Positions 29,001 to 64,000 of a stretch of DNA of 64,000 nucleotides are shown in pieces. The position numbers and the translations under genes were made by a program. The stretch's first letter is position 1. Every line of letters starts with the position of its first letter. The stretch covers positions 11,747,191-11,811,190 of the forward strand of contig NC_088300.1 in NCBI RefSeq assembly GCF_032854445.1, read 5' to 3'. Source of the stretch: Liolophura sinensis (Eukaryota > Mollusca > Polyplacophora > Chitonida > Chitonidae). Under the pieces are notes generated by a model that saw nothing but the letters and a program-made list of their open reading frames with translations, was not told where the DNA came from and made no database searches.

Positions 29001-31418
29001 TAAGTGAAATATTCTTGAGTAACTTATTTACCTCACTGAATTATTTTGCAGATTCCTTAAAATAAACATTTCAGGCAATAAAATTCAACCATTATGGATA
29101 ATATTCATTATTTTATATATCTCGCCATGCATTGATTTCACTAACTATGCTGTAAAGCAAAGGGGTGGGGGGGGGATTTCTGTGGTTCAAGTCCAGCTGA
29201 TGCCGGCTTCCTTTGCAATCGTTCATGGGAAGGTTTGGCAGCAACCTGTGGATGATCAAGAGTTTTTTCCCATCATAATGTTGGCCACTGTCGTATAAGT
29301 GAAATATTCTTGAGTGTGACGTAACACAAATCAAATGAATAAATATTCCATATACCTGCTATTCTTTTGTATCTGGTACTATTCTGTCCATTCAGATTCA
29401 AGCTTTATGAAAACAATGGCTACAGCTTTGGTGGACTTCAGTGAGTTGAATTGCCATGCACCCTTACTCTTCCTGTTAGAGGTAAGTAATCTCCTTTTCC
29501 GCTGTATAGCCAACTGCAATGAATGAAGAGCATTTAATGTAGCATTAGCTCAGTGCTAAATGCATTTAATTCATAAAAACACTCAAGTTTTGGAATAAAA
29601 GCTTGTGATGTGATTATGTGCAGTTGAAAGCAGCCATTAAGGCTTTGTACAATGTGAGTGTATACATTGTATGTATTGATTACCATGCCATCTTCATACT
29701 AGGTTCATAAACTCTTCTAACCAGGACTTTGTGTAGTTAAAATTTTACAATGTTCCAAGCTTTGCCGTCTCCATGTGATGTATATGATTGCATCCAGATA
29801 TTTTGAAATTCAGGCTCTTTTAATTTAAGGTTTAATTTGATTGGTTAAACTTAATAATATTTTTGCACTTTCGATTTTCTCCTCGAGTGCTATTTTGCAT
29901 ACTGTTAACTGTGATGCAACATCACAGCAATAACAAAAAATATGCTTTTTAGAACCTGATGTGGGATACATTATTAATGCACATACATTTTACCTTGTGC
30001 TGTCTCTTTTTTCTAATATCTTTTGGGTCTGTTATTATAGGGGTTAAACAGTAAGAAGAACCTGCCAACAGAAGGGATTGTCCTATTGCTGAACAACGTG
30101 TCGACATACATCAACTGTATCACCCTGGAGAGTAACTCACCCGTGTGGAACAACATTCTCATACAGTTTGACATTTTCTTCCGGCGCCTGGTCACTGTGC
30201 TGCCAAACCCCTGCGATATGACCTCCTCAATGAAGATCATGATAGCTGTCCTCAAGGTCCCTGGTGTGGCCAATAACAGAGTAAGAAATGTAGTCTAAAA
30301 TATTATTTACACTTCTGTGCAACCTTATTCAGTGCTCAAATCAAATGCCGACAACTTCTATATAGAAGCCATCATGATTGGAAGTATTCTCAAGTTGGTG
30401 AAAGAAATGTAACTTATATATCAACTGCAGTGCAGGGTATAAATAGCTCGTGAATAACCTGAAGGGATGCTAGGTCAGGGCTCAGCATGTATTCCTGGGT
30501 AATATGTGTTACATGTCCTACAGTATGTCTTGGATGTATACAATGTATGTATGCTTGGGGTTTAACATCAGATGTCTTGGATGAGTATGTGGAACCAAAG
30601 TACAAGTTAATAACATCTGACCAAGGAAAAAAATTGATCCGTCATGTTTTAGTGCACATGTATACATTCAAGCATAGCTATGACTTCTGGGACTTTCATT
30701 TGATGTATTGAAAGAGAAATGTAGCCAGCATTATGAGGGTTCATCTTTCTGTAGTGTTTTCTGCTTGTGTTGAACATATTATTGTACCGTGTATCTACTT
30801 TATTTTATCAGTGCATCCTGGAGCCCTTCTCCAGGTTCTGATGTATCAGAACATATCACTGTACCGTGTATCTACTTTATTTTATCAGTGCATCCTGGAG
30901 CCCTTCTCCAGGTTGTGATGTATCAGAACATATCACTGTACCGTGTATCTACTTTATTTTATCAGTGCATCCTGGAGCCCTTCTCCAGGTTGTGATGTAT
31001 CAGAACATATCATTGTACCGTGTATCTACTTTATCTTATCAGTGCATCCTGGAGCCCTTCTCCAGGTTGTGATGTATCAGAACATATCACTGTACCGTGT
31101 ATCTACTTTATCTTATCAGTGCATCCTGGAGCCCTCATCCAGGTTGTGATGTATCAGAACATATCATTGTACTGTGTATCTACTTTATCGTAGCAGTTAT
31201 GACGTATCCCAACTTAACTAGAGTGTATGTATTTTATCTTGACAGTGTATTCTCGAGCCCTTCTCCAAGCTACTGAGCTTTGCTCTCCAGAACTGTTCTT
31301 TCAAACTGCAGCATCTACTGGATATATGTTCTCTCAGCAACAGGGCATTTGTCAAGGTAAAACCAACACAATACAGAGCTTTCAAGTGGTGACATAACAA
31401 CATCGTGGTTACATTGCT

Positions 31419-31453
<35 letters not shown>

Positions 31454-34400
31454 TTTGATTGATGTTTTACACTGTACTCAAGAATATTTGACTTATAAAA
31501 CAGTGACCAGCAGTATGGTGTGAGAAAAACGAGCAGAGTCTGAGGAAAAACCACGACCATACCCAGGTTACTGGCACAACTTCCCACATATAGCGAGATA
31601 GGAAGCTAACATCAGGCCACAGCGGTTCAATAAGTGACAATGTTAACATTTAGCACTGTAGCTCAGCCCCAAACATTCCGTGGCCAATAAGCTTTGGTGC
31701 ATATCTGTGAGAAAGAAACCATAAAAATCTTGACGTAGGTTGAAGGTCAAAATCTACACCTTTTTATGCCGTCAGCTGGGAGGTGTGCATAGCAACGCCA
31801 AGGGGACGTCACTCGCAGCCTCATCACCACCTGTCTCCTTGTGTCCTCTCGCCCAGAATTTCAAACTTTCCTCATTAAAACTCATACCTGCCCAAAGCTT
31901 AGACAATTTCCATCATTTTGATACCAAGCAGTACACCAAAAACTGCAGGCTGGCAGCAAAAAATGACTTTACACTCTAAAATACACAGAATTCCCACTCA
32001 AAAAATGGACGTTGTAATGGGGGTCTGTGTCCATCTACTGGACTTTAACCACAGAGCTCTCCCCAGCCCATTGCTTTACAGCATGGTTGGTGAAATCAAT
32101 GCAGCTTAACATGGCCAGGTATATACAATAATTAATATTATCTACAATGGGTGAATTTTATTACCTGAAATGTTTATTTTAAGGAATCTGCAAGGTATTT
32201 CAGTGAGGTAAATACATGTATGTTAATGTTTTGTGAATTTTTATTGCTGCTGCCCTTGTTAAAATGCAGTGACTTACCCCACTATTCCGTAAAGTGACAA
32301 AGGGACATCACCATTTATCACAATGTCGTAACTGTAAACCCCTGAATTGGGTTATAATGGGGACCTAACTGGATTAAGCACTGTTGTACAAAGGCAGGAA
32401 TGAGCAGTAGGCTATGTAGCTTTGGCCCAAACTACTTCATACACGATAGGTTCTCCATTAAGTGATAAATAAAATCCTGAAGAGGTGAAGTGGTGACTAT
32501 GTAATTTTTTTTTTTTTTTTTTTGGGTTTGTTTGTTTGTTTTACTGAGTTTAGAGGTGAATCTAAATCAGTTATGATGCAGTGTTTTATCTAGTTAAAGT
32601 ATCAGCATGTTTTTTTGAAGTTAATCTTTGTGGTATTGCCATAAAGACTTTCACACGTGAGAGGAATTCATCAAAAACCTTGAAGGAGTGTATTTTGTGT
32701 CAGGTCGCTTCTCATTTGTAACTCAACAGTATATGTTTTAAATAGTCTACCACTACCAGTAGAGTTTCAAAGACAAATCGTAGTCATGCTGTATACACCA
32801 TTTCGTCAGATTCGCACCCAATGCATGTTATTTATTATGCTTATTGATTACGATGTGTATCTGTTTCTGTAGGAGCGGGATAAGCTGTTCCTGACAAGGA
32901 GCGTCATATTTGAGTTTGTCCAAGCTCTCAAATTCAAGTCAACTTTACCTGATGAGAACTGGCTATTACTAGCTCAGGTAAGTCCACATAACTGACATTT
33001 TCCTTACAGAAGAACAACATTAAGTTTTTATTTTTTAGTTTCATTTGATTAGTTAATTAATTTGATACATTTTTTTTATCATGCAAAATGAACTCGAACA
33101 GCGTAACTTAATAATAATATCACTGAAGTTGGTTTTGTACATATGGTTTGCAATGATACATGTACGTGTGCTTCCTTGAAATGGAAGCCTTGTAATTTAA
33201 AGTACTGGGTTATTTTTCTAATAGTATTCAGAAACCTATGAGAACGCTGATTAAACCTAGAACGCTTAAGAACAGAAAAATGGTAAAATTTTAAAATTTA
33301 TCTAGCTTAATTTTTATTTCACCTTTCAACAACCACATGCCAAAGGCACAACCTCTGCCTTTGTAATTGTTGAGAACTGTGTTACTGCCGTGTTTGTTGT
33401 AGTTTTTGATCTAAAATAATGAAGCTACGGTTTCCTCCACCCATTGTAGAGGACATGGTTACTTCTGTGTTTGTAGTTTGTGATGTTGGATATCTGGGGA
33501 AGTGTTTAGTACACCCTTGTTTTAGAGGACATGGTTACTTTTGTGGTTGTTGTTTGTAATCTCAGATGATGGAGGAACAGTTTCCTCCACCCCTGTTGTA
33601 GAGGACAGATCTTGGATGTCAGGGAACTGTTTCATACACCCTTGTTTTAGAGAACATGGTTATTTCTGTGTTTGTAGTTTGTAATTGTGGAAGCTGGAGA
33701 AACAGTTTCCTCCACCCATGTTGTAGAGGACAGATCTTGGATATCTGGGGAATTGTTTCGTACACCCTTGTTTTAGAGAACATGGTTATTTCTGTGTTTG
33801 TAGTTTGTAATTGTGGAAACTGGAGAAACAGTTTCCTCCACCCATGTTGTAGAGGACAGATCTTGGATGTCTGGGGAATTGTTTCGAATACCCTTGTTTT
33901 AGAGAACATGGTTATTTCTGTGTTTGTAGTTTGTAATCGTAGAAGCTGAAGGAACAGTTTCCTCCACCCATGTTGGAGAGGACAGATCTTGGATGTCTGG
34001 GGAATTGTTTCGTACAGGAACAGTTTCCTCCACCCCTGTTGTAGAGGACAGATCTTGGATGTCAGGGAACTGTTTGGTACACCCTTGTTTTAGAGGACAT
34101 GGTTATTTTTGAGCTTGTTGTTTGTAATCTCAGATGATTGAGGAACAGTTTCCTCCACCCATGTTGTAGAGGACATTTTTACTTCTGTGTTTGTAGTTTG
34201 TAATCTTGGATGCTGGAGGAACAGTTTCCTCCACCCCTATTGTAGAGGCCAGATCTTGGATGTCTGGGGAACTGCTTGGTACACCCTTGTTTTAGAGGAC
34301 ATGGTTATTTCTGAGTTTGTTGTTTGTAATCTCAGAGGATGGAGGAGCAGTTTCCTCCACCCCTGTTGTAGAGGACATTTTTACTTCTGTGTTTGTAGTT

Positions 34401-37400
34401 TGTAATCTTGGATGCTGGAGGAACGATTTCTCCCACCCCTATTGTGGAGGATATGGCTGCTCTGTATCACTCCCACGCTAATGCCCTGGTCAGCACATCA
34501 GCCTCTGAGTGTATGCGACAGCACCTGACAGACTGTACAGAATTCATTGCTGACCTTCACACACTCACCAAGGTCAAGGTAATTTGGAAGATATAGATAA
34601 GGCATGATAATATTCAAAGACAGCTTTATATGAAGCCTTACAAGTTTTTTTCATTAGAGTAATTTGTTTTCTGCTTCTTACAAATTTATAGTTTTTATAA
34701 ATTCAACTGTATATGGATGTACAGTTTTTATGAATTCTACTGTGTAAGGTACATGTAGCTGACTCAGATGACAAGATTTAGAATCAGTTATTCTAGGAGT
34801 GGCCTACATTGATCATGTGCTTGTGATTCTGTTGACAGAGTATCATGAAAGGAGGAAGCAGCAGCCTGAACGAAGACACCTTGGGGAGTCAGCTTAAGGC
34901 AGCCCTGGCCCAGTATATTGCCCTGGAGATCAGCAAGGGGAACGGCAGAGACAGCCGTGCCATTACGCGTTACCTCCCCTGGCTTTACCATCCCCCATCA
35001 GCCATGCAACAAGGGTGAGCTGTAGGCCATGGTGCCAGATGTTGCCGCTCATGCTGACATGCTGGTTTTTAAACACATGGTGGAATTTTAAAGGAAAATA
35101 AATTACCAGTTGTATTTATAGAAAACAGCATTTTTATGTATCAAGAATACAGTGTCTATACACATACATTTATGTGCAATGTTTGGTAACCTAATTGAAT
35201 ATTAAGACATAACGTATGATAATTACAGAAAATTCAGCCTGATTTTTGTGCTTTTCCTAACTCTCAGTATTAAACCATAATTATTTGTTTGTGTTTTCAG
35301 CACTAAGGAGTTTATTGACTGTGTGGGTCACATTCGGTTACTGTCCTGGCTGCTAATTGGTTCCCTGACCCACACAGCACTGACAGATGGCACCGCCCCT
35401 GTGGTGTGTCAGCCAATACCCATGGAGGCCAGCAATCAGATAGCTGACCACGTCATGGTGATCATGACAGGTTTTGCTGAGCAATCCAAGGTTGGTAAAC
35501 CCTGCGTCTTTCTTAAAATAAACCTGTACTGTTAACAATTATATGAGAAATGGTATTATCAGTTAAGGGGGCTGTCACTTATTCTGCCGCATCATGAACA
35601 CTGGAGGATTGTCAGTTACCTGCAAAAGGACAGTGATTTACTCCCCAGTGAGGCCCCAGTTTCACAAAAATGTCGTACATGTACGATAATCACACATTTA
35701 CGACAGTGGTTCAGTAATAGTCAGGTATAAAAAAGTTGTACACCGCTTCGTGAGACTGGGCCCTGTTTTTCTCTGGTGATATATCTGACTGCCATCATAT
35801 AAGTGAAATTCCCTATAAAAATGCACTCACCAATCAAATTTGTGATTTATCATGACCTGTTAATGCTTCCTTGTTTTGTGTTGTATACTACTGTAATTGT
35901 ATTCCATTATCATCTGCTAATTGCTTTATGTTTACAGGCTTCTGTCCCTCACATGTCCTCACTCTTCCATGCTTTTATCCTCTGTCAGGTAAGAGTGTGA
36001 AACAAGTGTACATGCATTACATGAAAAAGGTGTCAGTTTGACCTTTCATGCCACCTCAACATTACGTGAAAAATGTGTCAGTTTCACCTTTATATCACCC
36101 GAACATTACATGTAATAAAAGATGTCAGTTTCAACCTTCATATCATCCCAACATTACAAAGACTGAATTCCTGGCTGTACAGTCTTTGTATGTGAGTTAG
36201 ATATAGGTACATGTATATCATTTCTGTTTTTGATGTCACCTAAATAAACGTTCAGCCCTGAACTACCAAGAGCTTAACATGAATCTCTAACTGGCATTCA
36301 TTATCAGATGATTCAATACTTCAAGAAAACATTCCTAATTTGTGCTTTAGTCATACTTGGAAAAAACATTGAATTTTATTACAACTACAGTCAAGTTGTT
36401 TGTTTCTACATTTGCATTTAATTCTTTGCTTATGACCTGTATCTGCTTGACATGTTTGCTGTATTTCACTGTAGCTGTGGACCATGTACTGTGAGTCTGC
36501 AGCCACCATGCACCCTGCAGGGAGTGAGTCACACATCACCGCCTCTAGTACCATCATGGATTTCTGGGCACGGGTCACCCCCGGGGTACTTCAGCTCCTC
36601 TCTCACTCCAAAGTGGTAAGTCAAGGCTGTATTACCTGTCAAGTAAAACCATTCTAGATCAGGTTTTATCTGCACTGCCAAAATCACCCTCTGTCAAATA
36701 TCGTAGCTCTTCAGCCTTTTCGCATGCAAAAAAGGCAACTTTGGATTCAGTTTATGCACTGTGGTAATTTGATTTTGGAAGTAAAATGTATTGGCAAGAT
36801 GGCAATATCCTTAGCATTATTAAACATGGTGGAAATATTCCTTCATATCTGAAATTAGGAACAATTTCTTTCCTGAACTTTTGACATAAAGGTTGCCACC
36901 TGCACATGCTGTCTTCTTCAGCTACATGTATATGGTTTAGTATGCACATGAGATTATAGGAAACAATAGTAAGGAAAAATATACAATAGTCCAGGAGATA
37001 AAATCATCAGTTTTTCTTTCAGATGAGTGATTTTATTTGTAAGTCTTATTCCAATAAAATATTTTGCTCTCTCTTAACTGATCAGGCCTTTTGAAATGCC
37101 CTTGTTATTTGGAGAGGACACATAATTCACAGTCCTGTCTGGTTGCATGTAAATGTAGGCCTAGGAGTTTACAATTAATGGTGATGTGCCTAGCCATGAG
37201 CACATGTCTGAATGAAGGAGGGGTTCACATGTATCAAAGAATTAATGGTGATGTGCCTAGGCACATGTATCAAAAATAAAACATATGAGTGATTTGAGTA
37301 AAACATCAAATATGTTAGAATATTAAAAACAGGCTTAAAATAGAAATGGTATGAACTATTGTGAATACTATTACACTATAAAACTTTTTTAAATTTGAAA

Positions 37401-40400: not shown

Positions 40401-41883
40401 CATCATTTTAAGTTGTTCAGTAAGGAACAGAAAAGCTGCTCTCATCTACAGTGATATGGAAAAGGTGTGCAAAAATCGTGCTGGTGTGAATCATGTTTGA
40501 AGCCACACGATTACTTCAGCCAAAATTCTTCTTACAAGATTTGACGTTTTGTTTTTGTAGCTGGCAGAGATGGTGAATCTTCACTTCCTCAGTCTAATGG
40601 AAGCGCTGCAGGAGTGTAACTCGTTTGTGTTGGCCAAGGTAAATTGATGTCTCTTTTCTCACTGTTTTGTCTATTTATGTGTGTAGGTGTGGGGAGGGTC
40701 ATCAGTGGGTTAATGTTCTACATGATTTGTTCTATATTTTGAACTCATTTTAATTTAAAAGAGAATATCTCCAAAATGATAAATATTGGTACGAATTTGA
40801 ACTGTTATAATTCTGATTGTGCATTGATTTGCTTTTATTTCACACAGCTATTCCCAATGTGGACATCCGTCTTGTACTCCTATCATTCGCAGGTAACCTT
40901 TTCTTTCTGCTTCACTTCGCATTTACAGACACATTTGTTGGATTACAATGACTACATTATGTGTGTTCAGCTATGTGTAGATTAGTGTGCAGGTGTTCTT
41001 TGTGTAAACTTCAGTACATTGGTTTAGTGAGGCACGTTATCTGTTACATACCGGTAAAGTCTGTGGAAAGATCTGCCCACTACCTACAGATGGTCATGGG
41101 TTTCCTCCCACTATAATGCCGGCTGTCGTCGTATAAGTGAAATATTCTGGTGTACAGTGTAGTAATACTCCAAACAAATAAATAAATATGTAAAATGCCT
41201 TAAAGAGTACAAAAAGCAGTGAGGTTGAGTAGATACTGGTAATGTACACCAAAATATGTTCTGCCAACAGTCACGCTCTGCTAAAATCAAATGGAGATAT
41301 TGAAATATTTTTATAGAATTTGAAAATTCAATTCACTATGTAAATATGAGCACACGTCTATAAGTGTTTATCAGACTTAAAGATGTTTTGAACATTTATA
41401 TGTACTAAATAGCAGCTAGGAAACTCAAAATAATAAATCCCTTTTCACTATTTTTGACACATACATGTACATTCATTTTTCTGTTCTTCATTCAACTTAT
41501 GGTCGTCATATGACTGAAAAATTGTTGAGTACGACGTTAAACCCCAAGCACTCACTCACTCATTCAACTTATGCCTTTTTGAGAGAGAGATCTAGAGAGA
41601 GGGAGAGAGAATGTTATGAGATACTTTGACCAGCTAAGCATAACAAACATACTTAATGGTGTCTCCTTGTCCCTGTTACATCATGACCACCCCGACTTTT
41701 TAGCTTCCAGGCCACCTGCAGGTGAGGTTACAGACCTGTCAGAACTGGGAACCCACCAGGAACACCAGCTCTCAGCCCTCCACCACCTGCAGCATGTTAC
41801 TCACCTGGTTGAAGAGGATCCAGTTCAAGCTGGGACAGATTGAGGTCCAGTCTTCAACTGCCACTCAGTTCTTCACAGTTTAG
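11598..41883 (+). CDS. unc79: unc-79 (NALCN channel complex subunit), C-terminal 28 exons, 5'-partial
   Basis: UNC79 is a very large, mostly helical-repeat cytoplasmic protein. It works with UNC80 as an accessory subunit of the NALCN sodium-leak channel, which sets resting membrane potential in excitable cells. Exons: 11598-11799, 15716-15895, 18354-18413, 19984-20094, 20404-20525, 20825-20884, 21271-21353, 21698-21740, 22417-22599, 23046-23190, 23605-24047, 24935-25535, 26221-26395, 26823-27056, 27746-27784, 28453-28565, 29396-29481, 30041-30280, 31246-31356, 32873-32977, 34399-34578, 34839-35014, 35301-35490, 35938-35988, 36475-36615, 40561-40638, 40848-40892, 41704-41883. They total 4377 bases, 1458 residues plus TAG. 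Every junction is GT-AG and phases agree throughout. Family landmarks recalled from animal UNC79 include LEFQFDTV, TLSLEAQL, FNAFLAGLPHVLD, TFIHREPSL, HQLAPNGIFPMLFQS, YLPWLYHPPSAMQQG and a C-terminus ending QSSTATQFFTV. The N-terminal part lies upstream of the window. Confidence 0.95.
11800..15715 (+). other. unc-79 intron 1, with one TIR element
   Basis: Apart from the inverted-repeat element at 12009-12525, this intron is AT-rich sequence with no exon I can support. It includes a short palindromic patch at about 13689-13758 (CAGGGCCGGA...TCGGACCCTG) and an A-run near 14744-14757. Confidence 0.6.
12009..12525. mobile_element. Non-autonomous DNA transposon (MITE-like) with ~36-bp terminal inverted repeats
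   Basis: The left end AAGTATGCAACTTACC...CTATATCTAGTCTCCACGGC (12009-12043) is matched in reverse complement by the right end (12490-12525), with about 33 of 36 positions identical. The interior of about 445 bases has no transposase frame. The ends and size fit a non-autonomous cut-and-paste element. I see no clear target duplication. It lies in intron 1 of unc-79. Confidence 0.65.
15896..19983 (+). other. unc-79 introns 2 and 3 (exon 3 lies between them)
   Basis: Apart from exon 3 (18354-18413) there is only AT-rich intron sequence. It includes a pyrimidine-rich block near 18155-18190 and a TA-rich microsatellite at about 19805-19832. No other gene or mobile element is recognised. Confidence 0.6.
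20404..23190 (+). CDS. unc79: unc-79 exons 5-10: conserved helical-repeat block
   Basis: Exons are 20404-20525, 20825-20884, 21271-21353, 21698-21740, 22417-22599 and 23046-23190 (local residues 185-396). The order of motifs matches the family: VYELVALLMKYMVK, then NIVLRHLNVLLGYNQTEKAF, then CSAVFNAFLAGLPHV joined to LDKNFKLGNMILPISLLLLQ, then WYLEPHTRQAWLMALLVILY, then TLIRIVINTIDAQHHRC. The 43-base exon 8 (21698-21740) is too short to stand out alone but is fixed by phase and by the GLPHV|LDKNF join. These are amphipathic helix pairs like HEAT/ARM-type repeats. Confidence 0.93.
22086..22250 (+). mobile_element. 5'-truncated family-A SINE in unc-79 intron 8
   Basis: It begins near GGCTTCCTCTCTGGGAGTA and continues through GTGGGAAGGTCTGACAGCC, CATAATGCTGGCAGCTGTCA and AAGTGAAATATTC to AATCAAATAAATAAATTAA. 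The tRNA head is absent. It is sense to the host gene. Confidence 0.8.
23605..26395 (+). CDS. unc79: unc-79 exons 11-13: acidic, serine-rich, predicted disordered insert
   Basis: Exon 11 (23605-24047, 443 bases) and exon 12 (24935-25535, 601 bases) are the two largest exons. They encode a highly charged, low-complexity linker of about 350 residues, rich in S, E, D, K and R (for example SLTESEEERDDR and SEEERLL-like repeats around 25310-25390). Exon 13 (26221-26395) has a basic cluster, RQRKQRKTGL. A similar acidic linker occupies this position in vertebrate UNC79, but the sequence is poorly conserved. Exon 12 ends AATAAAG|GTAGTG and joins exon 13 in phase 1. The base composition is more GC-rich than the flanking introns. 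Confidence 0.88.
24151..24846. mobile_element. hAT-like non-autonomous element in unc-79 intron 11
   Basis: The left end is CAGGGTTTCCACAAGATC at 24151. The right end at 24830-24846, read in reverse complement, is CAGGGTTTCCACCAGAAC. The CAGGG start is typical of hAT-superfamily ends. ATGGA occurs on both outer flanks, but a clean 8-bp duplication is not seen. About 696 bases long with no transposase frame. Confidence 0.5.
25733..26157 (+). repeat. 54-bp tandem array in unc-79 intron 12
   Basis: A 54-bp unit (core ATTATTGGTCCTGGTGTACA, then GAATTCATAAAGTTACTGTA) recurs about 7.5 times with a few per cent divergence. The unit is a multiple of three, so the minus strand stays open through the array (18-residue repeat NSNMFVYTR...NNGYSNF). 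There is no splice context or homology, and I take the frame as a by-product. Unlike the other large arrays in this window, this one shares no sequence with a neighbouring exon. Confidence 0.9.
26823..31356 (+). CDS. unc79: unc-79 exons 14-19: conserved C-terminal core, first half
   Basis: Exon 14 (26823-27056) carries the CPEC pair in ERCPECNAVLEQYDEDT, followed by TFIHREPSL. The 39-base exon 15 (27746-27784) encodes IASHSPYSWQSD. Exon 16 (28453-28565) encodes ARQFLRCCLHQLAPNG. Exon 17 is 29396-29481 and exon 18 is 30041-30280. Exon 18 encodes LNSKKNLPTEG, FDIFFRRLVTVLPNP and MKIMIAVLKVPG. Exon 19 (31246-31356) encodes CILEPFSKLLSFALQNC. Phases run 2, 2, 2, 1, 0, 0, 0 with no break. Exon 19 sits directly after an array of five partial copies of its own 5' end (30778-31200). 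Confidence 0.94.
28911..29020 (+). mobile_element. Family-A SINE fragment in unc-79 intron 16
   Basis: GTCGTACATGGGAAGGTTTA, CTTCCCCGGG and GATAAGTGAAATATTCTTGA identify a worn fragment without the head or AT tail. It runs directly into the repeat at 29025-29200. Confidence 0.72.
29025..29200 (+). repeat. Unclassified interspersed repeat, left arm of an inverted pair
   Basis: This stretch (TTTACCTCACTGAATTATTT ... GGTTCAAGTCC) matches the reverse complement of 32030-32214 over about 175 bases. Shared blocks include GATTCCTTAAAATAAACATT and TGCTGTAAAGCAA. It carries neither SINE family's middle and is not identified. The pair flanks unc-79 exons 17-19. Confidence 0.8.
29190..29346 (+). mobile_element. 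Family-A SINE in unc-79 intron 16, fused to the inverted repeat
   Basis: From GTCCAGCTGATGCCGGCTTC it continues GGGAAGGTTTGGCAGCAACC, CATAATGTTGGCCACTGTCG, AAATATTCTTGAGTGTGACG to AAATGAATAAATA. It abuts the unclassified repeat, with a G-run at 29165-29174 upstream. It ends 50 bases before exon 17. Confidence 0.75.
30778..31200 (+). repeat. 77-bp tandem array of partial exon-19 copies (acceptor + 5' exon)
   Basis: Five units start at 30812, 30889, 30966, 31043 and 31120. Each holds a pyrimidine-rich tract with TTATCAG (an acceptor) followed by TGCATCCTGGAGCCCTTCTCC, encoding CILEPFS, the first residues of exon 19. Read in frame from each decoy acceptor, translation stops within a few codons (AGG TTG TGA). 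The authentic exon at 31246 has the slightly different TGTATTCTCGAGCCCTTC and lies 49 bases after the last unit boundary. The array therefore arose by tandem duplication of an exon-edge fragment. Confidence 0.93.
31407..31640 (-). mobile_element. TTTA microsatellite and antisense family-A SINE in unc-79 intron 19
   Basis: A (TTTA)n run at about 31407-31456 is the A/T-rich 3' end of a reverse-oriented SINE. The body follows: TGTTTTACACTGTACTCAAG, AATATTTGACTTATAAAAC, CAGCAGTATGGTGTG and CTTCCCACATATAGCGAG. It is strongly diverged and lacks the tRNA head. It is the only family-A copy antisense to unc-79. Confidence 0.72.
32030..32214 (-). repeat. Unclassified interspersed repeat, right arm of an inverted pair
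   Basis: This is the reverse complement of the 29025-29200 repeat, with shared blocks TTGCTTTACAGCAT, AATGTTTATTTTAAGGAATC and CAGTGAGGTAAATA. It lies in intron 19 downstream of the antisense SINE. A T19 run follows at 32505-32523. Confidence 0.8.
32873..36615 (+). CDS. unc79: unc-79 exons 20-25: conserved C-terminal core, second half
   Basis: Exon 20 (32873-32977) encodes ERDKLFLTRSVIFEFVQALK. Exon 21 (34399-34578) encodes FVILDAGGTISPTPIVED, then SECMRQHLTDCTEFIADLH. Exon 22 (34839-35014) encodes LNEDTLGSQLKAAL and RYLPWLYHPPSAMQQ. Exon 23 (35301-35490) encodes HIRLLSWLLIGSLTHTAL. Exon 24 (35938-35988, 51 bases) encodes HMSSLFHAFILCQ. Exon 25 (36475-36615) encodes LWTMYCESAATM and FWARVTPGVLQLLSHSKV. 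The start of exon 21 is fixed by the acceptor GTTTGTAG at 34391-34398. Earlier near-identical acceptors in the repeat array run into stop codons. Confidence 0.94.
33376..34450 (+). repeat. ~126-bp composite tandem array of partial exon-21 copies
   Basis: The core TTTCCTCCACCC occurs about nine times before the authentic exon-21 version (TTTCTCCCACCC at about 34428). The clearest spacing is 126 bases (TTTGTAG at 33671, 33797, 33923). Each full unit has an acceptor-like TGTTTGTAG, then exon-derived sequence (in frame: FVI, D-x-GG, VSSTP, VVED). A non-exonic half follows (GACAGATCTTGGATGTC ... CACCCTTGTTTTAGAG). The copy at about 34187-34255 is nearly identical to the real exon start. Decoy frames hit stops such as CTTGTTTTAG. 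Confidence 0.92.
35649..35764. mobile_element. Small MITE-like palindromic element in unc-79 intron 23
   Basis: GGCCCCAGTTTCAC at the left is mirrored by GTGAGACTGGGCCCT at the right. The interior of about 85 bases is itself partly palindromic (GTACATGTAC) and has no coding capacity. Ends of this type occur in small DNA elements of marine invertebrates. No target duplication was established. Confidence 0.5.
36014..36163 (+). repeat. ~45-bp tandem repeat, three copies, in unc-79 intron 24
   Basis: Units begin CATTACATGAAAAAGGTGTC, CATTACGTGAAAAATGTGTC and CATTACATGTAATAAAAGAT, each followed by AGTTT(G/C)A and CCTT. The array starts 26 bases after the donor of exon 24 but does not include exon sequence. 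Confidence 0.75.
36616..40560 (+). other. unc-79 intron 25 (3.9 kb)
   Basis: The longest intron fully inside the gene. It holds a short imperfect direct repeat (ATTAATGGTGATGTGCCTAG near 37170 and 37241), one SINE (38389-38647) and a small hairpin at 39278-39307 (GTCCAACAT...ATGTTGGAC). No other gene is recognised. The frame at 37857-38201 has no homology I can see. Confidence 0.6.
38389..38647 (+). mobile_element. Nearly full-length family-A SINE in unc-79 intron 25
   Basis: Degenerate tRNA-like head (GAGGCCTCCATTGCCGCGTT) and AACCTCTCACCAGTGCGGTC, then CTTCCTCTCCGGCCGTAAGT, CAGCAACCTGCGGATG, AATATTCTTGAGTATGGC and CACCAATCAAATAAATAAA. Sense to the gene. Confidence 0.85.
40561..41883 (+). 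CDS. unc79: unc-79 exons 26-28 and stop codon
   Basis: Exon 26 (40561-40638) encodes LAEMVNLHFLSLMEALQECN. Exon 27 (40848-40892, 45 bases) encodes LFPMWTSVLYSYHSQ. Exon 28 (41704-41883) opens LPGHLQVRLQTCQNWEP and ends WLKRIQFKLGQIEVQSS, ATQFFTV, TAG at 41881-41883. This matches the well-conserved family C-terminus, so the frame is closed by its authentic stop. A 3.9-kb intron separates exons 25 and 26. The acceptor of exon 28 is TTTTTTAG at 41696-41703; the nearby CCAG would break the family alignment. The last 39 coding bases are repeated in tandem downstream. Confidence 0.94.
41056..41189 (+). mobile_element. Family-A SINE fragment in unc-79 intron 27
   Basis: GAAAGATCTGCCCACTACC, ATGGTCATGGGTTTCC, CTATAATGCCGGC, TCGTATAAGTGAAATATTC and a CAAATAAATAAATA end identify a 5'-truncated, internally shortened copy. 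Confidence 0.75.
41489..41573 (+). mobile_element. Tail-only family-B SINE insertion with 13-bp target duplication
   Basis: Only the 3' 59 bases of the family-B element are present (41502-41560: TCATATGACTGAAAAATTG, GAGTACGACGTTAAACC, CACTCACTCACT). They are flanked by perfect copies of CATTCAACTTATG at 41489-41501 and 41561-41573. This is a textbook severely 5'-truncated insertion by target-primed reverse transcription, 131 bases before the last unc-79 exon. Confidence 0.9.
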
Positions 41884-42190
41884 ATGGCAAGCTACATGTA
41901 GCAGGTCAAAGAGCTGGGTCCAGTCTTCAACTGCTACTCAGTTCTTCACAGTTTAGATGACAAGCTACATGTAGCAGGTCAAAGAGCTGGGTCCAGTCTT
42001 CAACTGCTACTCAGTTCTTCACAGTTTAGATGACAAGCTACATGTAGCAGGTCAAAGAGAAGGGTCCAGTTTTCCAGTGCTACTCAGTTCTTCACAGTTT
42101 AGATGTAGCGGGTGAAAGAGAAGGATCCAGTCTTCAACTGGTTCTCATTTCTTCACAGTTTATGTGCTACAGTCACAGGGCAAAGCAAAT
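41845..42190 (+). repeat. 73-bp tandem array containing the unc-79 C-terminus and stop codon
   Basis: Units start GTCCAG at 41845, 41918, 41991 and 42064, with a shortened unit (61-bp step, 12 bases deleted) near 42125. Decayed sequence continues to about 42260. The first unit is the authentic coding end (VQSSTATQFFTV and TAG). The rest are 3'-UTR copies that still read CAGTCTTCAACTGC, CTCAGTTCTTCACAGTTTAG. Between them is GACAAGCTACATGTAGCAGG, which carries the palindrome CTACATGTAG. Confidence 0.93.
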
Positions 42191-42745
42191 TCAGTATAAG
42201 CTAGGATAGAACTGGGTTAGTCTACTGAGTTATTCACAGTTTAAGTCACCTGCGAGCAACATAAGAAGAACCTTGTACCGGTAACTACTTCTCAACTGCT
42301 ACTTTAATAGTTTTTTAGTGCTTAAATGACAGAAAGATTAGCTTTAAATTTTAAGCTGTAAAGACAGAAAAATTTGCTCTGCAGTTCTTTATTATTTGAG
42401 GGCTTTAACATTTATTAATATGTGGTGCATTAAGGCAAATCAAGGTCACCAAAATTGTAATCAATTAAGATAGTTAAGTCAAATCTGCAATGAATCAAAT
42501 AATATATGGCCTATACAGTCTGAAGATATGGGGCCATTCATTAGACCTCATGAAGGAGTTTTATAATAGTCTTGAGACAAGCCAAAATTCCTGTTGTGGA
42601 ACGAGCTCATAGGCTTAGATCTGGCTTAAGATATTAGTTACCTGGAGGATTTGTGTATAAATGACAAATATCACTGTGAATTAATATACATGTGCTGAAT
42701 TCTGTTTACTTCAGCTGTTTTAATAGGGCCTATGTGCTGCATACT

Positions 42746-42751
42746 AATAAA
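42746..42751 (+). promoter_or_regulatory. Candidate polyadenylation signal of unc-79
   Basis: AATAAA at 42746-42751 is the first strong canonical signal I noticed after the stop codon at 41883. AT-rich sequence makes such hexamers common, so the true 3' end is uncertain. Confidence 0.25.
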
Positions 42752-44061
42752 TGCATGTTGGCTTTCATCAGATATTCCAGGGTTGCTGCATTGTTGTAGA
42801 CGGACTGCAATGTACATGTCAGAATATAGAGCTCAGCATCTGACACACAGGATTATCTAATAATGTGTATCTTTGATTTCCAACAGGAAATGTTGGTGAC
42901 ACCATGGTTATTGTATAGGGTAATTTTTAAGCTTAGTCATGACAGAGTGCTGTAAGGGCATTGAACTTAGAATGTACACATGGTTTGAAGGTAGACATGA
43001 GTAAATAAGACATTTCAGTTGGTAAGTAGGTTCTTCCATACACATGCACATGTACATGTATGTTAGATTTATGTTGTTATACATGCTGATTTACATGTAT
43101 TATACATGTCCACAATCAAAAGAACTGCTATCTGTGCACATGTATGATAGAGTGAAGACATGGAGTTCAATACAGGTTCATGGTAAAGATAGGAATTTAC
43201 AAGATTATCATTTACAGGTCATATATAGGATTGAATATTAAAATTGTTTTCGTGTTGGTCATGGAAAACCAAAGAGTTTAAAGCACAAGTCTTTTCAGCA
43301 TTGTTGACAGAAATGAAGTGTTTCACTGTTTCATAGAAGAAGTATTTAAAGTTTACATATGTTCTTGATGTGCAATATATCTAATATATACATCTTATAT
43401 ATCTAGATGTTTCTGTTTTTATTAATTTATTTGCTTTGTTTTAAGCATTACTGTGCAATATTGACATTTGTGCAATGAAAAGATAAATTATTGTTAGACA
43501 TGTTTAATCATGTGAAAAACTTGTTGATGGAGGAAATCTGAAATATAAGCTGAGAGCTATTTCATATATTGCTATAAAGGTAGCTAACTATGATGTTACG
43601 TAGTTACACAATGCTTACAGATTACCAGAATGATTTTTGAACAGTTTTTTAGACTGACTTTTTAATGTTCACATTTTTATTATTTTTCTTATTATAGTAT
43701 TGCTAGGCTGCAAGGACAAATATGGGAAACCAACCAAGATCTTACATTGTTACCATTTTTCTAATTGTAAACATTGCATTCAGTTCAGTTCAAAATTCTG
43801 GGTTGAGCCTTTATGTGTCAGTCATTGCATAATCTCAGAACTTGTTATTTTACTCTTGTTTTAGCTTGTAATTTGCAATTCATGTGTACTGGTTAGTGGT
43901 CTGAAAATTCTACCGTTGCTACATTGTATGTTATACATATGTGTTCCATGTATGGTCTACTGAATGTTTTGAGCTTTTTTAGTTTTGAGATAACCTTTTG
44001 TGAACATACAAAATCATAAACAGAATTTCATATACTCCTAAGCCATCATGAACCATTTATA

Positions 44062-44252
44062 GTTTGGCGTGTCGGAGTGGTTAGTGTGCTAGTGAAGCAC
44101 AATGACTCGGAAGCCTCTCACCAATGTGGTCACTGTAAGTTCAGGCCATGATGGTTTCCTCCAGCTTTTCCTGGTTTCCTCCCATGTTAATGCTGGCCAT
44201 CGTTGTACAAGTGAAATATTCTTGAGTACACCGGAAAAACACAATTTATCAA
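44062..44252 (+). mobile_element. Diverged family-A SINE with internal deletion
   Basis: GGCGTGTCGGAGTGGTTAG resembles a tRNA-like A box, followed by GCCTCTCACCAATGTGGTC, TGGTTTCCTCC, TTAATGCTGGCCATCGTTG and AAGTGAAATATTCTTGAGTA. The CGTACGTGGGAAGGTC middle is missing. Confidence 0.72.
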
Positions 44253-45072
44253 ATCCTACTTTTATATAATAGAGATTTGTTGTCAGAATGACTGGTACCA
44301 TTGTTTTATTGTTTTTCACTTGAGTAATGAATTATGACTAAGTTTTATGAATTATAAGTACACGCTAAGCACCAAAAATGTGATGTTTTGTCTTCGCAAT
44401 GTTGGGTTAGTTATTCAGTCTTCACACACTATCCAGCGGCTACCAGTTCCTGTACAGGAATAGTGTTGTGTAACGTAGATCAATAAATAATGTCATGCTT
44501 AGATATCAGTTGGCTTATTTGTTTAATGTTGGTTGGTATAAAATGGAAATGTCTAGAGATGACTCTTTGAGAATATTCACTGGTTGAGACAGTTGATGGA
44601 CAAGTTAGTATTCAAGGTAACTTTTATGCTGACTTGACTTAAAGAAAGACTAAACTCAGACTGAATCACATGTGGTTTGTCAAGAAGGAAGTTAAGGAGG
44701 ATAGCGGTGGAGGGTTGCGATGAAATAGGAAATACTTGTATTTAGGTGATGTAAGTCTATTGCGTCATCATTTAAAGGAAGATTCTCATCTCATTTGCAC
44801 AAGAAGATAAAAAAAAAATTGCTGGACAACATGAAGTGGGTGAAGAACATTTTAGAAATAAATTTACCGTAGGCAAATTAGTTCTAATGGAGTATTCACC
44901 TGGAAATCCCCAATGTTGGTTCTTCCACTGAGGGATAGGCCAAATACTGGTCCAGCCAGTTGCTGAGTGATATGTGGTGTTCATGCAGTGTCTTAAACAT
45001 GGCGTTCCGCTGAGGTACTGTAAATGTGTTCGCTTTGATCTATGTGTTGGTGTTTTATGTGGTAGGTAATTG

Positions 45073-45263
45073 GGTGAGGCCTAGCGGTTTACATGCCTAT
45101 ATTAATCGCTCTCATTACGTGAGAAGGTCTGGTAAAGACCTGTGGATGGTCGTGGATTTCCCCCGGGCTCTGCAGGGTTTCCTCCCACCATAATGCTGGC
45201 CGTAGTCATATAAGTGAAATATTTTTGAGAACCGCGCAAAACACCAATCAAATAGATAAGTAG
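45073..45263 (+). mobile_element. Family-A SINE with shortened head
   Basis: GTGAGGCCTAGCGGTTTAC replaces most of the head. Then TACGTGAGAAGGTCTGG, ATTTCCCCCGGGCTCTGC, CATAATGCTGGCC, CATATAAGTGAAATATT and ACACCAATCAAATAGATAA follow. Confidence 0.75.
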
Positions 45264-45512
45264 AAATGATCGCTAGCAGACACAATGAGCGAGTTCAACA
45301 CTGACGATTGAACAATGAATTTGTAGATTTCCTGCTTTCATGCACTATTCGTCGGACCTTAGTAAGAATAAGCTGGAATGGTCGTTTGCGCAGTTTAACG
45401 TTCGTTGCCTTCCGCTAATATTATAAACATATCTTTACATCACAAGTGGCAAAATTTGGACAGTGGCTTGGCAGAGATGAGTAGTTTACGCGTGTCATCT
45501 TGGTCCCCTCCA

Positions 45513-45577
45513 CTCATAAAACACACGGCCATCGTATAACGAAAAAGTTCTTAAGTATGGCGTTAAACAGTAATAAA
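45513..45577 (+). mobile_element. SINE tail fragment
   Basis: CACGGCCATCGTATAACG, AAAAAGTTCTTAAGTATGGC and GTTAAACAGTAATAAAT match the family tail only. Confidence 0.5.
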
Positions 45578-45786
45578 TTATGTTGATCCAGGTTTAAGGG
45601 GAAGAGCGAATGGATAAATCCAGGACAAAACATATTCATCCCTGTATGAATATGCGCATAGCATAAAAAATGTTGAGTTAGTGTATACCCTGCCCAGGGT
45701 GATGTGTGGATTGAACCAATGTAAACAGCCAACTGAAGGACTTCATTGTCGTCATATATAAGCGTGCTGAGACTTCTTTCTTAATC

Positions 45787-45940
45787 ACATGTCAAGCTCA
45801 TGCTGACTTCCTCTCCCACCGTACGTCGGAATGTCTGTCAGCAGCCTTCGGATGGTCGTGGGCTTCCCCCGGGCTCTGTCCGGTTTCATCCCACGTATTT
45901 TGAGTACGGCGTAAAACACCAATCAAACAAATAAAATATA
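45787..45940 (+). mobile_element. Family-A SINE lacking the CATAATGCTGG block
   Basis: CATGTCAAGCTCATGCTGAC, GTACGTCGGAATGTCTGTCA, GGCTTCCCCCGGGCTCTG and CCGGTTTCATCCCACG jump straight to TTTTGAGTACGGCGTAAAAC, CACCAATCAAACAAATAAA. This is a clean internal deletion of about 40 bases. Confidence 0.8.
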
Positions 45941-47325
45941 TTGTTTCAATCTATGTTCTAATTTGCAGCATGTTCATGTATTCAATTTATAGCGTCAAGG
46001 CATCTGAACCCTTTGACACTGTGATGGCGTCCTGATGAGAAGGTCCCCCTCAAGACAAGCGCTCACTTCTGAATATGATCAAATCTATTGTTCCTCACTG
46101 AATAGGGTGGTACTGAGGACTAATCGAAAGGCTCCAAGACAGAAAAGGCATGTTAAATTCTCTGTCTTCGACATTAGTCCACTATAGATCAAATCTACCC
46201 ATAACCCTTACAAAACAAATCTTGAGCACTGCGTTGAAAACAAATCAATCATTCGTTCAGTCAATCATATCTTCATGTGAGGGTTTCAGATTGGCAATAC
46301 CCGCCCTGCTTCACTTGGCCTTGTGTATAGGCGAATAAACCGAAAAGGGTTCGTCCCACTGTCAACATGCACTGTTGATGGCTTGGGCGCCAGACCGCCT
46401 CACCGGGTGATTTCCATGCCAACAAGGCCATTCACAACATGTATACAAAATTCCTTTCATGGGCGTAAGATTCAGCTCTCTATAGCTGTATAGCCACTAC
46501 ATAATAAATATTTAACTTAAAGAAATATTCCCTTTTCTCTTGAAACTGATCTTGATCAGGTTCTGTTTTACCTTAAACCTTAAGGGATACTTGCGGCGTA
46601 TAATTCTTGTAGCGAATTATATATTCTCGTGTCGTATTCTGTCCTGCAATCCATCTGTTTTCCAGGTTAGCATGACACTTAATCCTGAGAGAAGGAGTCT
46701 GAAATTGTTTTAGAGACATTTGAGCTTAAGTCCATCACAGGAAATCGGGGAAATGTGTTACACGGGCAATAAAAGTTACACAGTAAAACTGGGTTGAAGA
46801 CATTACTTAAAGTGCTACATTGCCTTTGTAGTGCATAAAAAAGGTTTCCTGATATAGTGAACGGTGATTATTTTGTTATCATACACTCTGTTTGTAACCC
46901 CGATAACCCTATCAAACATGCCTGACGCTTGTTTTTTCTTTCACTGCCAAAAGTAACCTCTAATCTTATTTAAGAATAAAAATGTTTACATTTTATGAAT
47001 GACAGCGTCGGCATGAATACTAAGCAAATGTGACCACAGTAGCACAGATGTTAGTTCTCCAACCAGCAAGAAAGTACAAATCTACATCCATCAAGAACAG
47101 TTTATTTGCAAACGCCTCAGCAAATTAACATGTGCATGTTAACACATGTGGACAAAGTACAACTCGACCACTATACCCGAACTAGAAACCGATAGACTTG
47201 TACTTCAAGCCGACACATGCAGAACTAGATAAAGGGGTTAGTTCTGTGGTTTCTGACACTGTCGCCACTCCACAAATCAGTTTTAATTTTATTATTCTGA
47301 CAGCAACGGAGAACAAGTCGTAATA

Positions 47326-50300
47326 ATGTATGGCGTGGGACTGAGAGTGGTTACAGGAATATTAGTTATGTCAGGAACTCTTATAGATACTACAGGGGCA
47401 TTGAAAAAAACGAAAAGTGAACATACTGTTACTGCCAATTTACAGGCTGTGGAACCGGAGTTCAATGTTGCGGGATCGGTGACCTTGGTGGACACTGCCT
47501 CCCCCGACCCCACGTCTGGTTTTGAAACACGTTTCTTGACTAAACTGCAGACCATAAAGAACAGTCTTGGTTTTAGGTTACGTAAGATGTTTACGTCTCT
47601 CGATTCCCAGGTTCATCGTCTCGACGTTATGGAGAGAGACATTCTGGATAATGTCGGAGAGATCCCGATTTCTTCCAAAACTTGGTTCATGTTCCGAGTC
47701 TACCGGGATCGGATTAGAAAAAGCCGGGGAGCGGTCTCGAACCTTAGCTACAAACTCAACAAACCCGTGTCCTTCATCTATAACATTGATGAGGAGCCTG
47801 TAGAGACAACGACCGACGTCGAAGTGGCTTTGAGACAGATTTTGGAGCAGCTAAAACAGAACATTGAGCTCATGGGCATTTTTTCCAGGGATCGCGCAAA
47901 AATTCTTCGGCTCTTGGAGAGCGTTAGAACTGGCACGGACAAATCCATCGTAGCGGAACAGAAGATGAACGAATGTTTGAGCTTGATGGGCCGCGTGCCA
48001 GAGATCGAGAAATCTGTGAAAGCCGTCCTGCTGGAACACCAAGCCGACCAAGCTGCGGCGCAATCCAAAAACAACAGCAACAGCTTGTCCACAGAGAAAC
48101 TTCTGAACAAAATCCTGCTGGCTAAGTCTGGCAGTAGGATGGAATCCATCGACCCAATGTGCCTGAACGTGGGTAAAACTTGGCAGAGATGTAGTTTTGT
48201 GTACGACGGCTCCTACACAGATTGCCACGGCTCTCAGTATGTCAGACTGTCTGGCTATGACGTGGGTAGGTACGTGGGTGTGGTCACTTGTGGTGAACAC
48301 AGGAACAAAAGGTATAAAATATTCCTTGGCGATTCACTGAGTTCCAAGTTTCTTTCCATCGCGGACTTGAACGGCAAGGGAGAGGACCATTGCGAATTTT
48401 TGGGTGCCGGATCCAGCCCTTACTGGAGACACAGTATGTCCTATACACCAGGTACATTTGAAGGTGAGTAATTAGGAGCACAGTGAGGTACAGGTACATT
48501 TGAAGGTGAGTAATTAGGAGCACCGTGAGGTACAGGTACATTTGAAGGTGAGTAATTAGGAGCACCGTGAGGTACAGGTACATTTGAAGGTGAGTAATTA
48601 GGAGCACAGTGAGGTACAGGTACATTTGAAGGTGAGTAATTAGGAGCACCGTGAAGTAGAGGTACTTTAATTTCATTTGATCATTTTTTTAAAACCGATG
48701 CTCCAAATTTATAATGAAGTTATTCTTCAATAACGTGTTAACTGTTGTCAGATCATTTCTCAGCAAATCACTGGCTTCTATTTGGTTTAACCCTCCGAAG
48801 AAGGGAACTGATATGGCTGCATAGCGAAGACGCATTTATCATGTGACTGATTAACATGTGCTGCATCGATCACATCATTCCACACACAATCACTTTCACA
48901 TGTCTTGAGCTACTTTACTTAATGCAATATCTCTGTACACCACGCATGACCAAAACATCTTTCTACCACGACGTTTTGAGTTTAGATGCGAGAATCAGAT
49001 CAGTTTAGATCAGTTTGGCCTTAAATAAAGGATGGCGCAGAAAAATTTTTCAGGCTTGTCTAAAGACATTAATCCTGATTAGAGGGATTAGGATTAAGAT
49101 ACCATATGTCAACTTGTATTGGTTCTGTCAAGATACATATGCGTAATTACATCTGGAAGTCTAAATAAATAAAAACTCCTGTTTTTGTGAAGGGTTTTTT
49201 TTCCACAAATCACTCCGTGAAAAGCCGAAAACGTCCGCCGCGACCATGTTACGAAGAGACTGTAAGGCTATTTCCTCGTCGACTTGACGTTAAAGTAATT
49301 CAGCCGATCTCAATTTTCACCCTCATGGCGACAGTATATGACTTGACGAAAAAGCTGAAAGTAATTTACAAGTTGTTAGCATACAGACGCATCTCCGGTT
49401 GGGTAGGCACACTAGTGCCGAATCTACAATAGTACTTGTTACACGCTTACGTTCTGTCCGTTCTGCCCATTCTGCCAGCGAGAGCAAACTCTTCTGTTCT
49501 ATTCGTGAAGCATATGTTGCCGAATAATTTTAATATCTGCAAAAGCGATAGTCATGTAAGTAAGTTTATGTAGACCATTCCGTGTTAACTGTACCAGAAA
49601 TTATTCACGCTAATCTGTGTCAGTTAATCTTTGGCAGCTGAAAATGCTAAGCTTGTAAGCCTTTTTCTAATACATACAACACTGCATGAACCAAAGAAAT
49701 GGTGTTGAGAAATTATTTGTTTTTTCGTTGATATTTCACATTTAGGAATAAGTATCTTCTGTCCTGCACACTGAAGGCGGTCACATTGAAGAGTGATTTA
49801 AACCTCGGCGCCTTGACCTTTTCTAATGAAGCCCCTGCCCTGTTGACATGTTCTCAGGAACACATTATGTAACACTGTAAATAGTTCACTGATTACACCG
49901 TGTTTAGGAATTATTCACTTCTATAACCACGATCAGGTGTATGGGTATAGGAAATCGGGGTTCCAGGCGCAAACCTTTAAACGCAAGTCAAACTGGTTTT
50001 CATTTTACTTATTAAATGCAGTTTACAGACTACTATAACTTGAAGTTTGTTTGTAGGTCATATTTACCGTGAAAATAAAAGCGTTGGGAGTCTCCTTTAA
50101 GATTATGAAAAGAGATCTGGGACTGGGACATGGGTTCAGCCGTGAAGAAAATCGAATTACATATAAATTGTTTTGTACCCACAATTCATATTGTTAGATC
50201 CATATGAAAATATACAGTATTTATAGTCTTAACTGGCGATTTTATTACAGAACTTATAATTAAACTTAAATGACCTATGAAGTCTAGTTCTAGCACCGAT

Positions 50301-54258: not shown

Positions 54259-64000
<9,742 letters not shown>

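Follow-up and report, generated by a model that had tools for sequence, protein, structure and literature searches.

Introduction

Tandem repeats that reach across an exon edge have a named precedent. In amphioxus genes, arrays termed mirages are described as tandem units lying over the exon-intron boundary at either 5' or 3' exon edges (PMC3087553; PMC3902484). These reports describe six and three copies in the two haplotypes of one gene, with RT-PCR suggesting normal splicing (PMC3087553), as well as haplotype and somatic instability (PMC3087553; PMC3902484) and the addition of PGBD5 and TnC as mirage genes (PMC3902484). Two other systems share individual features with them. Where introns are gained by tandem duplication, as for RdRp in potato, the duplicated segment carries splice signals (PMC4974935), and the 27-bp minisatellite in intron 3 of an abalone TSSK1-like gene is an intronic tandem array whose copy number varies among individuals (PMC6905558).

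We analyzed a stretch of 64,000 nucleotides from the mollusc Liolophura sinensis, hereafter the window, in which the initial annotation had noticed tandem arrays anchored on exon edges and had known of no named description for them. The latter view was mistaken; the pattern is that of mirages, the name already given in amphioxus genes. No mollusc report of mirages was recognized in the literature searched, whose scope left out most subscription papers.

Tandem arrays at exon edges in the window

All six arrays noted in the window were recovered in place by Tandem Repeats Finder (TRF). Four of them had been assigned to exon edges in two genes, an assignment that stands for arrays 1, 2, and 4 but fails for array 3, where a stop codon and an alignment to the UNC79 C-terminus place the array at the gene end. 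The window accordingly holds three splice-edge arrays (two UNC79 acceptors and one donor of a gene with a TARSH_C domain) and one stop-codon edge. As had been claimed, all four extend into non-coding DNA only.

The UNC79 gene was identified from seven hand-spliced exons (30040-35990), whose 352-aa translation matches solved UNC79 chains (E=1e-113). The spliced-query match and exon prediction agree in marking 31246 and 34399 as authentic UNC79 acceptors. Array 1 (30772-31188, plus strand; 77-bp unit, 5.4 copies) lies in the intron upstream of the exon at 31246-31356 (plus strand; CILEPFSKLLSF..AFVK) and contains five copies of the acceptor together with the first ~26 nt of that exon. The AG is intact in all five, and the copied acceptors score 10.3-11.9 relative to 10.2 for the authentic site. 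Copies are 96% identical among themselves and on average 70% identical to the authentic edge, which sits 57 nt outside the TRF bounds. By sequence comparison, this edge is thus a diverged outermost unit, a modified form of the original claim that the authentic edge is simply the outermost unit of the array. Codons that differ between the authentic edge and the copies comprise three synonymous changes and one K/R exchange. This synonymous excess (3/4 changed codons) was seen in array 1, whereas results for other arrays are mixed, and it is therefore not used as a general claim. Across the 609-Mb assembly (632 contigs), the array 1 unit has six matches, all at its own locus.

Array 2 (33430-34456, plus strand) repeats the acceptor of the UNC79 exon at 34399-34578 (plus strand; FVILDAGG..LTKVK) along with ~52 nt from the start of that exon. 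The array itself was confirmed, but its description as a repeat of about 126 bp was not, as it is a mosaic with periods of 50, 66, 76, 126, and 202 bp. At an identity of at least 62%, eight copies of the edge can be discerned, with the AG intact in five. Array 3 (41844-42162, plus strand; 73- and 61-bp units) was rejected as a splice edge. In its first unit, the final 37 nt of UNC79 coding sequence, together with the stop codon, are followed by 3' UTR. A query of the C-terminus matches 7w7g_A, a solved UNC79 chain of 2654 residues, over residues 2550-2652 (E=2.8e-9).

Array 4 (48449-48665, plus strand; 42-bp unit, 5.2 copies) includes the donor AAG/GTGAGT of the TARSH_C-gene exon and four intronic copies, and the donor score is 11.5 in the authentic site and in every copy. 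The exon (47446-48463, plus strand) has its predicted start at 47446 within a frame open from 47287, and it was assigned from a match to Pfam PF21731. Given that the match covers positions 1-76 of the 127-position profile before the donor at 48463, a later exon should carry the rest of the domain; none was identified among the open reading frames listed.

The two remaining arrays had been described as free of exon edges, which TRF and exon prediction bear out. One (25722-26155, plus strand; 54-bp unit) is intronic, between predicted exons at 24935-25535 and 26221-26395, and holds no predicted exon edge; the other (36015-36158, plus strand; 45-bp unit) is intronic, beginning 26 nt past the exon end at 35988, and is likewise without an edge. 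In the former, whose unit length is divisible by three, both strands carry an open frame (178 aa on the plus strand and 149 aa on the minus strand). Elsewhere in the window, predicted exons at 56983-63909 on the minus strand belong to an apparent glucose/sorbosone dehydrogenase or HHIP-like gene. One fragment has a weak GSDH match below the Pfam cut-off. A separate observation concerns G000:C8:37880506-37891931, where eight tandem hemocyanin beta-sandwich domains (PF14830; 8/8 above cut-off) lie on one contig. This is the molluscan type of hemocyanin, and it marks the host as a mollusc, an amphioxus host being rejected on the same grounds.

Frequency of edge-holding arrays in dynein and myosin loci

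The frequency of such arrays was estimated in a sample of 299 kb, made up of 30 dynein and myosin loci chosen irrespective of their repeats. The dynein part comprises 18 heavy-chain loci grouped from PF08393 matches. The myosin part comprises 8, later 12, of ~20 myosin-head loci, selected for compactness and not randomly, the four extension loci having been added once the first result was known. The exon set contains 359 exons, of which 260 were found by comparing the proteins of paralogues, their splice edges being adjusted with a site model, and 99 are ab initio predictions (score at least 20); ab initio exons entirely within arrays were excluded. Neighboring homology exons were phase-compatible in 162 of 202 cases. 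In a leave-one-out trial, a looser ab initio model overlapped 217 of 228 homology exons, 130 of them exactly, while predicting 658. Arrays were called by TRF with both strands pooled (score at least 80, period at least 18), using thresholds fixed after inspection of the TRF list and before intersection with exons. TRF calls depend on the strand: the gene strand yields 52 arrays and both strands 56, the four extra arrays having no edge. Since arrays in L001, L009, L010, and L024 were missed on one strand, single-strand counts are slightly low.

The 56 arrays cover 12.3% of non-coding bases in the 30 loci. Eleven hold an exon edge (nine donors, two acceptors), corresponding to ~1.5% of exon edges in these loci. 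Growth is into the intron in 11/11, which extends the directional claim beyond the window, and exonic overlap is at most about one unit in 10/11. The exception, an acceptor at L012 6909, is doubtful (score 4.0) and, as it exceeds the one-unit limit, was left out of the null counts, leaving 10 counted arrays. The donor exon at L012 534 has a weak dynein match (E=0.014) that ranked below an unrelated protein, whereas comparison with solved dynein and myosin confirmed L003 1687 and L026 773. Some arrays are very large (in gene-strand coordinates, L027:2761-5999 with 125 copies of 26 bp and L026:5165-8551 with 52 copies of 65 bp, both in myosin introns). Intronic arrays can also come very close to exons, as at L030:2637-3422 and L027:548-1411 (gene-strand coordinates), which begin 14 and 31 nt past a homology exon whose end they exclude.

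The initial annotation had suggested intersecting arrays with exon boundaries and comparing the overlap with random placement. Across the 30 loci, the excess found in this way depends on the null. When each array starts from one unit placed randomly in its locus (founder-unit null), 10 arrays were counted versus 5.1 expected (P=0.025), and at a TRF score of at least 200 the expectation is 3.7 (P=0.0019). When whole arrays are placed with an exon overlap of at most about one unit (array-placement null), the same 10 compare with 9.2 expected (P=0.43); at a score of at least 200, 6.7 are expected (P=0.098). Restricting TRF to the gene strand gives 10 versus 4.3 (P=0.008; P=0.0009 at a score of at least 200) under the founder-unit null and 8.0 expected (P=0.26; P=0.064 at a score of at least 200) under array placement. 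When the first 26 loci are analyzed on homology exons alone, 8/40 arrays hold an edge versus 4.5 expected (P=0.048), with no edge enrichment among periods of at least 40 (P=0.32); inclusion of ab initio exons gives nine counted versus 3.4 (P=0.0045) or 6.4 (P=0.16). With P ranging from 0.0009 to 0.43 according to null, score threshold, and repeat call, a general preference for exon edges is not established. In the window itself, the control rate would predict ~0.6 splice edges where three are seen, a hand calculation on ~24 of 27 predicted exons (three minus-strand exons being set aside as unlikely) for a window chosen for its pattern.

For a like-for-like comparison, 30-mers over exon edges were searched for a local copy on one side only and set against shifted non-coding positions; 5 of 718 edges were not testable. 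Copies were found for 11/713 edges (1.54%) versus 1.27% in the control (P=0.28), and for 10/634 edges in the first 26 loci (P=0.15). Acceptors displayed no excess (2/359, 0.6%, versus 1.3%; P=0.86). For donors, 9/354 (2.5%) versus 1.25% gives P=0.04 with 5 mismatches allowed and P=0.027 with 7, both one-sided and uncorrected, and P=0.025 in the first 26 loci. The proposal that slippage or repair favors exon edges is consequently not established in general and finds no support among acceptors, and what survives of it is the donor signal at uncorrected P=0.04. We regard a donor preference of about two-fold at most as possible but unproven.

These figures bear directly on the reading that donor edges truly are hot spots for founding arrays. 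Something about the 5' splice site, be it GT-rich sequence, pausing, R-loops, or microhomology of the exon end with adjacent intron, would then raise the rate of tandem duplication. The donor excess and the founder-unit result point toward such a hot spot, as does the difference between donors and acceptors in the first 26 loci (8/315 versus 2/319; Fisher P=0.06). Beyond being one-sided and uncorrected, these P values contrast with the array-placement null, the four extension loci added 12 arrays but only one edge, and acceptors account for two of the window's three splice-edge arrays. We therefore consider a donor hot spot rather unlikely, and we favor the reading that the apparent exon-edge bias mainly reflects a high density of minisatellites on which selection has acted as a filter.

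Copied splice sites and gene annotation

Many of the arrays present the splicing machinery with several sites of similar predicted strength. The nine donor mirages of the sample contain 80 decoy donors within 2.5 bits of the authentic site, from 1 to 27 per array and at least five in 7/9. Use of 78 of these would extend the exon past an in-frame stop, and the other two shift the frame. The four decoy donors of array 4 all lie past an in-frame stop as well, and in arrays 1 and 2 each of the 15 upstream AG sites that come within 2.5 bits would break the frame or add a stop. The sample acceptor at L012 5661 has no decoy within 2.5 bits. Retention of AG or GT ranges from complete (5/5 in array 1 and 4/4 in array 4) to partial (5/8 in array 2) and is mixed among sample arrays. 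The separation of the authentic edge from its copies is similarly uneven: identity among copies versus identity to the authentic edge is 0.96 versus 0.70 in array 1 and 0.977 versus 0.973 in L012 534. As the genes are conserved, splicing presumably uses the outermost site, a conclusion drawn from gene structure.

Such strength and consequence could suggest that the copied sites are functional, either in regulated unproductive splicing or through extra U1/U2 binding that strengthens exon recognition. Site strength does equal that of the authentic site in many arrays, and the stops and frameshifts that the examined decoys would bring are what unproductive splicing needs. Stops are nonetheless expected by chance in intron DNA, young and homogenized copies would stay strong anyway, the AG is absent from three of eight array 2 copies, and arrays away from edges carry no surplus of splice motifs, which together make a functional role very improbable. 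This last result comes from the 30 arrays without an edge in the first 26 loci, where splice-like motifs lie at a mean percentile of 0.47 for donors and 0.46 for acceptors; mirages therefore do not form a separate class by sequence. The same 30 arrays lend no support to the idea that non-edge arrays are decayed mirages.

Because every repeat unit in L012:583-2190 has both an acceptor-like and a donor site, the looser ab initio model placed a string of pseudo-exons there, mostly 54 nt long and numbering roughly one per unit. This illustrates how edge arrays can act as a trap for gene prediction.

Origin of the arrays

Mirages are, in our judgment, probably minisatellites whose founder segment chanced to straddle an exon edge, with array load and selection accounting for their distribution. 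Local tandem duplication, whether by slippage or driven by microhomology, would strike gene regions throughout at near-random positions, and arrays within exons would be eliminated by selection. If a splice edge falls within the duplicated stretch, one intact edge would remain against the exon, so that the gene survives and later copies accumulate on the intron side only. At a gene end, the same process could operate with the stop codon and 3' UTR. Copies may then homogenize mutually, with change at the authentic edge subject to coding constraint, and the spliceosome would keep to the outermost site despite many about equally strong copies, as gene structure suggests. Exon edges would be caught roughly at the rate predicted by array load, with any donor excess at most about two-fold.

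Of the two explanations offered in the initial annotation, the proposal that such duplications are tolerated when one working edge remains next to the exon is the better, because exonic arrays would be removed and the outermost copy would still work. It fits the intronward growth of all 11 sample edge arrays, the exonic overlap limited to about one unit in all but one of them, and the frame-breaking nature of the decoys examined. Assembly error, with copies collapsed or expanded at repeats, is very improbable: tandem arrays are error-prone and copy numbers here are those of the assembly, but substitutions distinguish the copies, units differ between arrays, contigs span tens of megabases, and the array 1 unit is matched at its own place only.

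Because these arrays line up many comparably strong splice sites within conserved genes, they lend themselves to tests of how the authentic site is chosen. A bolder reading, which we hold to be unlikely yet worth stating, is that minisatellites arise preferentially at 5' splice sites, that 1-3% of donors genome-wide face up to ~27 about equal copies, and that the outermost is reliably spliced. If true, such introns would be natural experiments on spliceosome choice among near-identical sites.

Comparison with known systems

The arrays described here differ from the other two intronic systems in their relation to the splice edge. Intron gain by tandem duplication, as described in potato, yields a new intron with duplicated AG and GT (PMC4974935), whereas the present copies lie within existing introns and no new intron was identified among them. 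For the abalone TSSK1-like minisatellite, the accessible text of the report makes no mention of a splice edge (PMC6905558).

The correspondence to mirages is closer. Arrays 1, 2, and 4 and 11 of the 56 sample arrays span an exon boundary; array 3 does not. Unit length is variable in both systems (10-72 bp and 150-160 bp in amphioxus, ~25-140 bp in the present sample). In both, AG or GT is kept in many but not all units, and copies are homogenized. The amphioxus reports describe the boundary unit as excluded from homogenization, a feature that is clear in array 1 and absent in L012 534. The amphioxus work drew on RT-PCR and haplotype comparison, whereas ours draws on the DNA of one assembly. 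Further differences are that one case here lies at a stop codon and that frequency was measured against null models. Lastly, the known range of mirages is the cephalochordates, and the present host is a mollusc; judging by the literature search, their range thereby reaches beyond lancelets into a new phylum.
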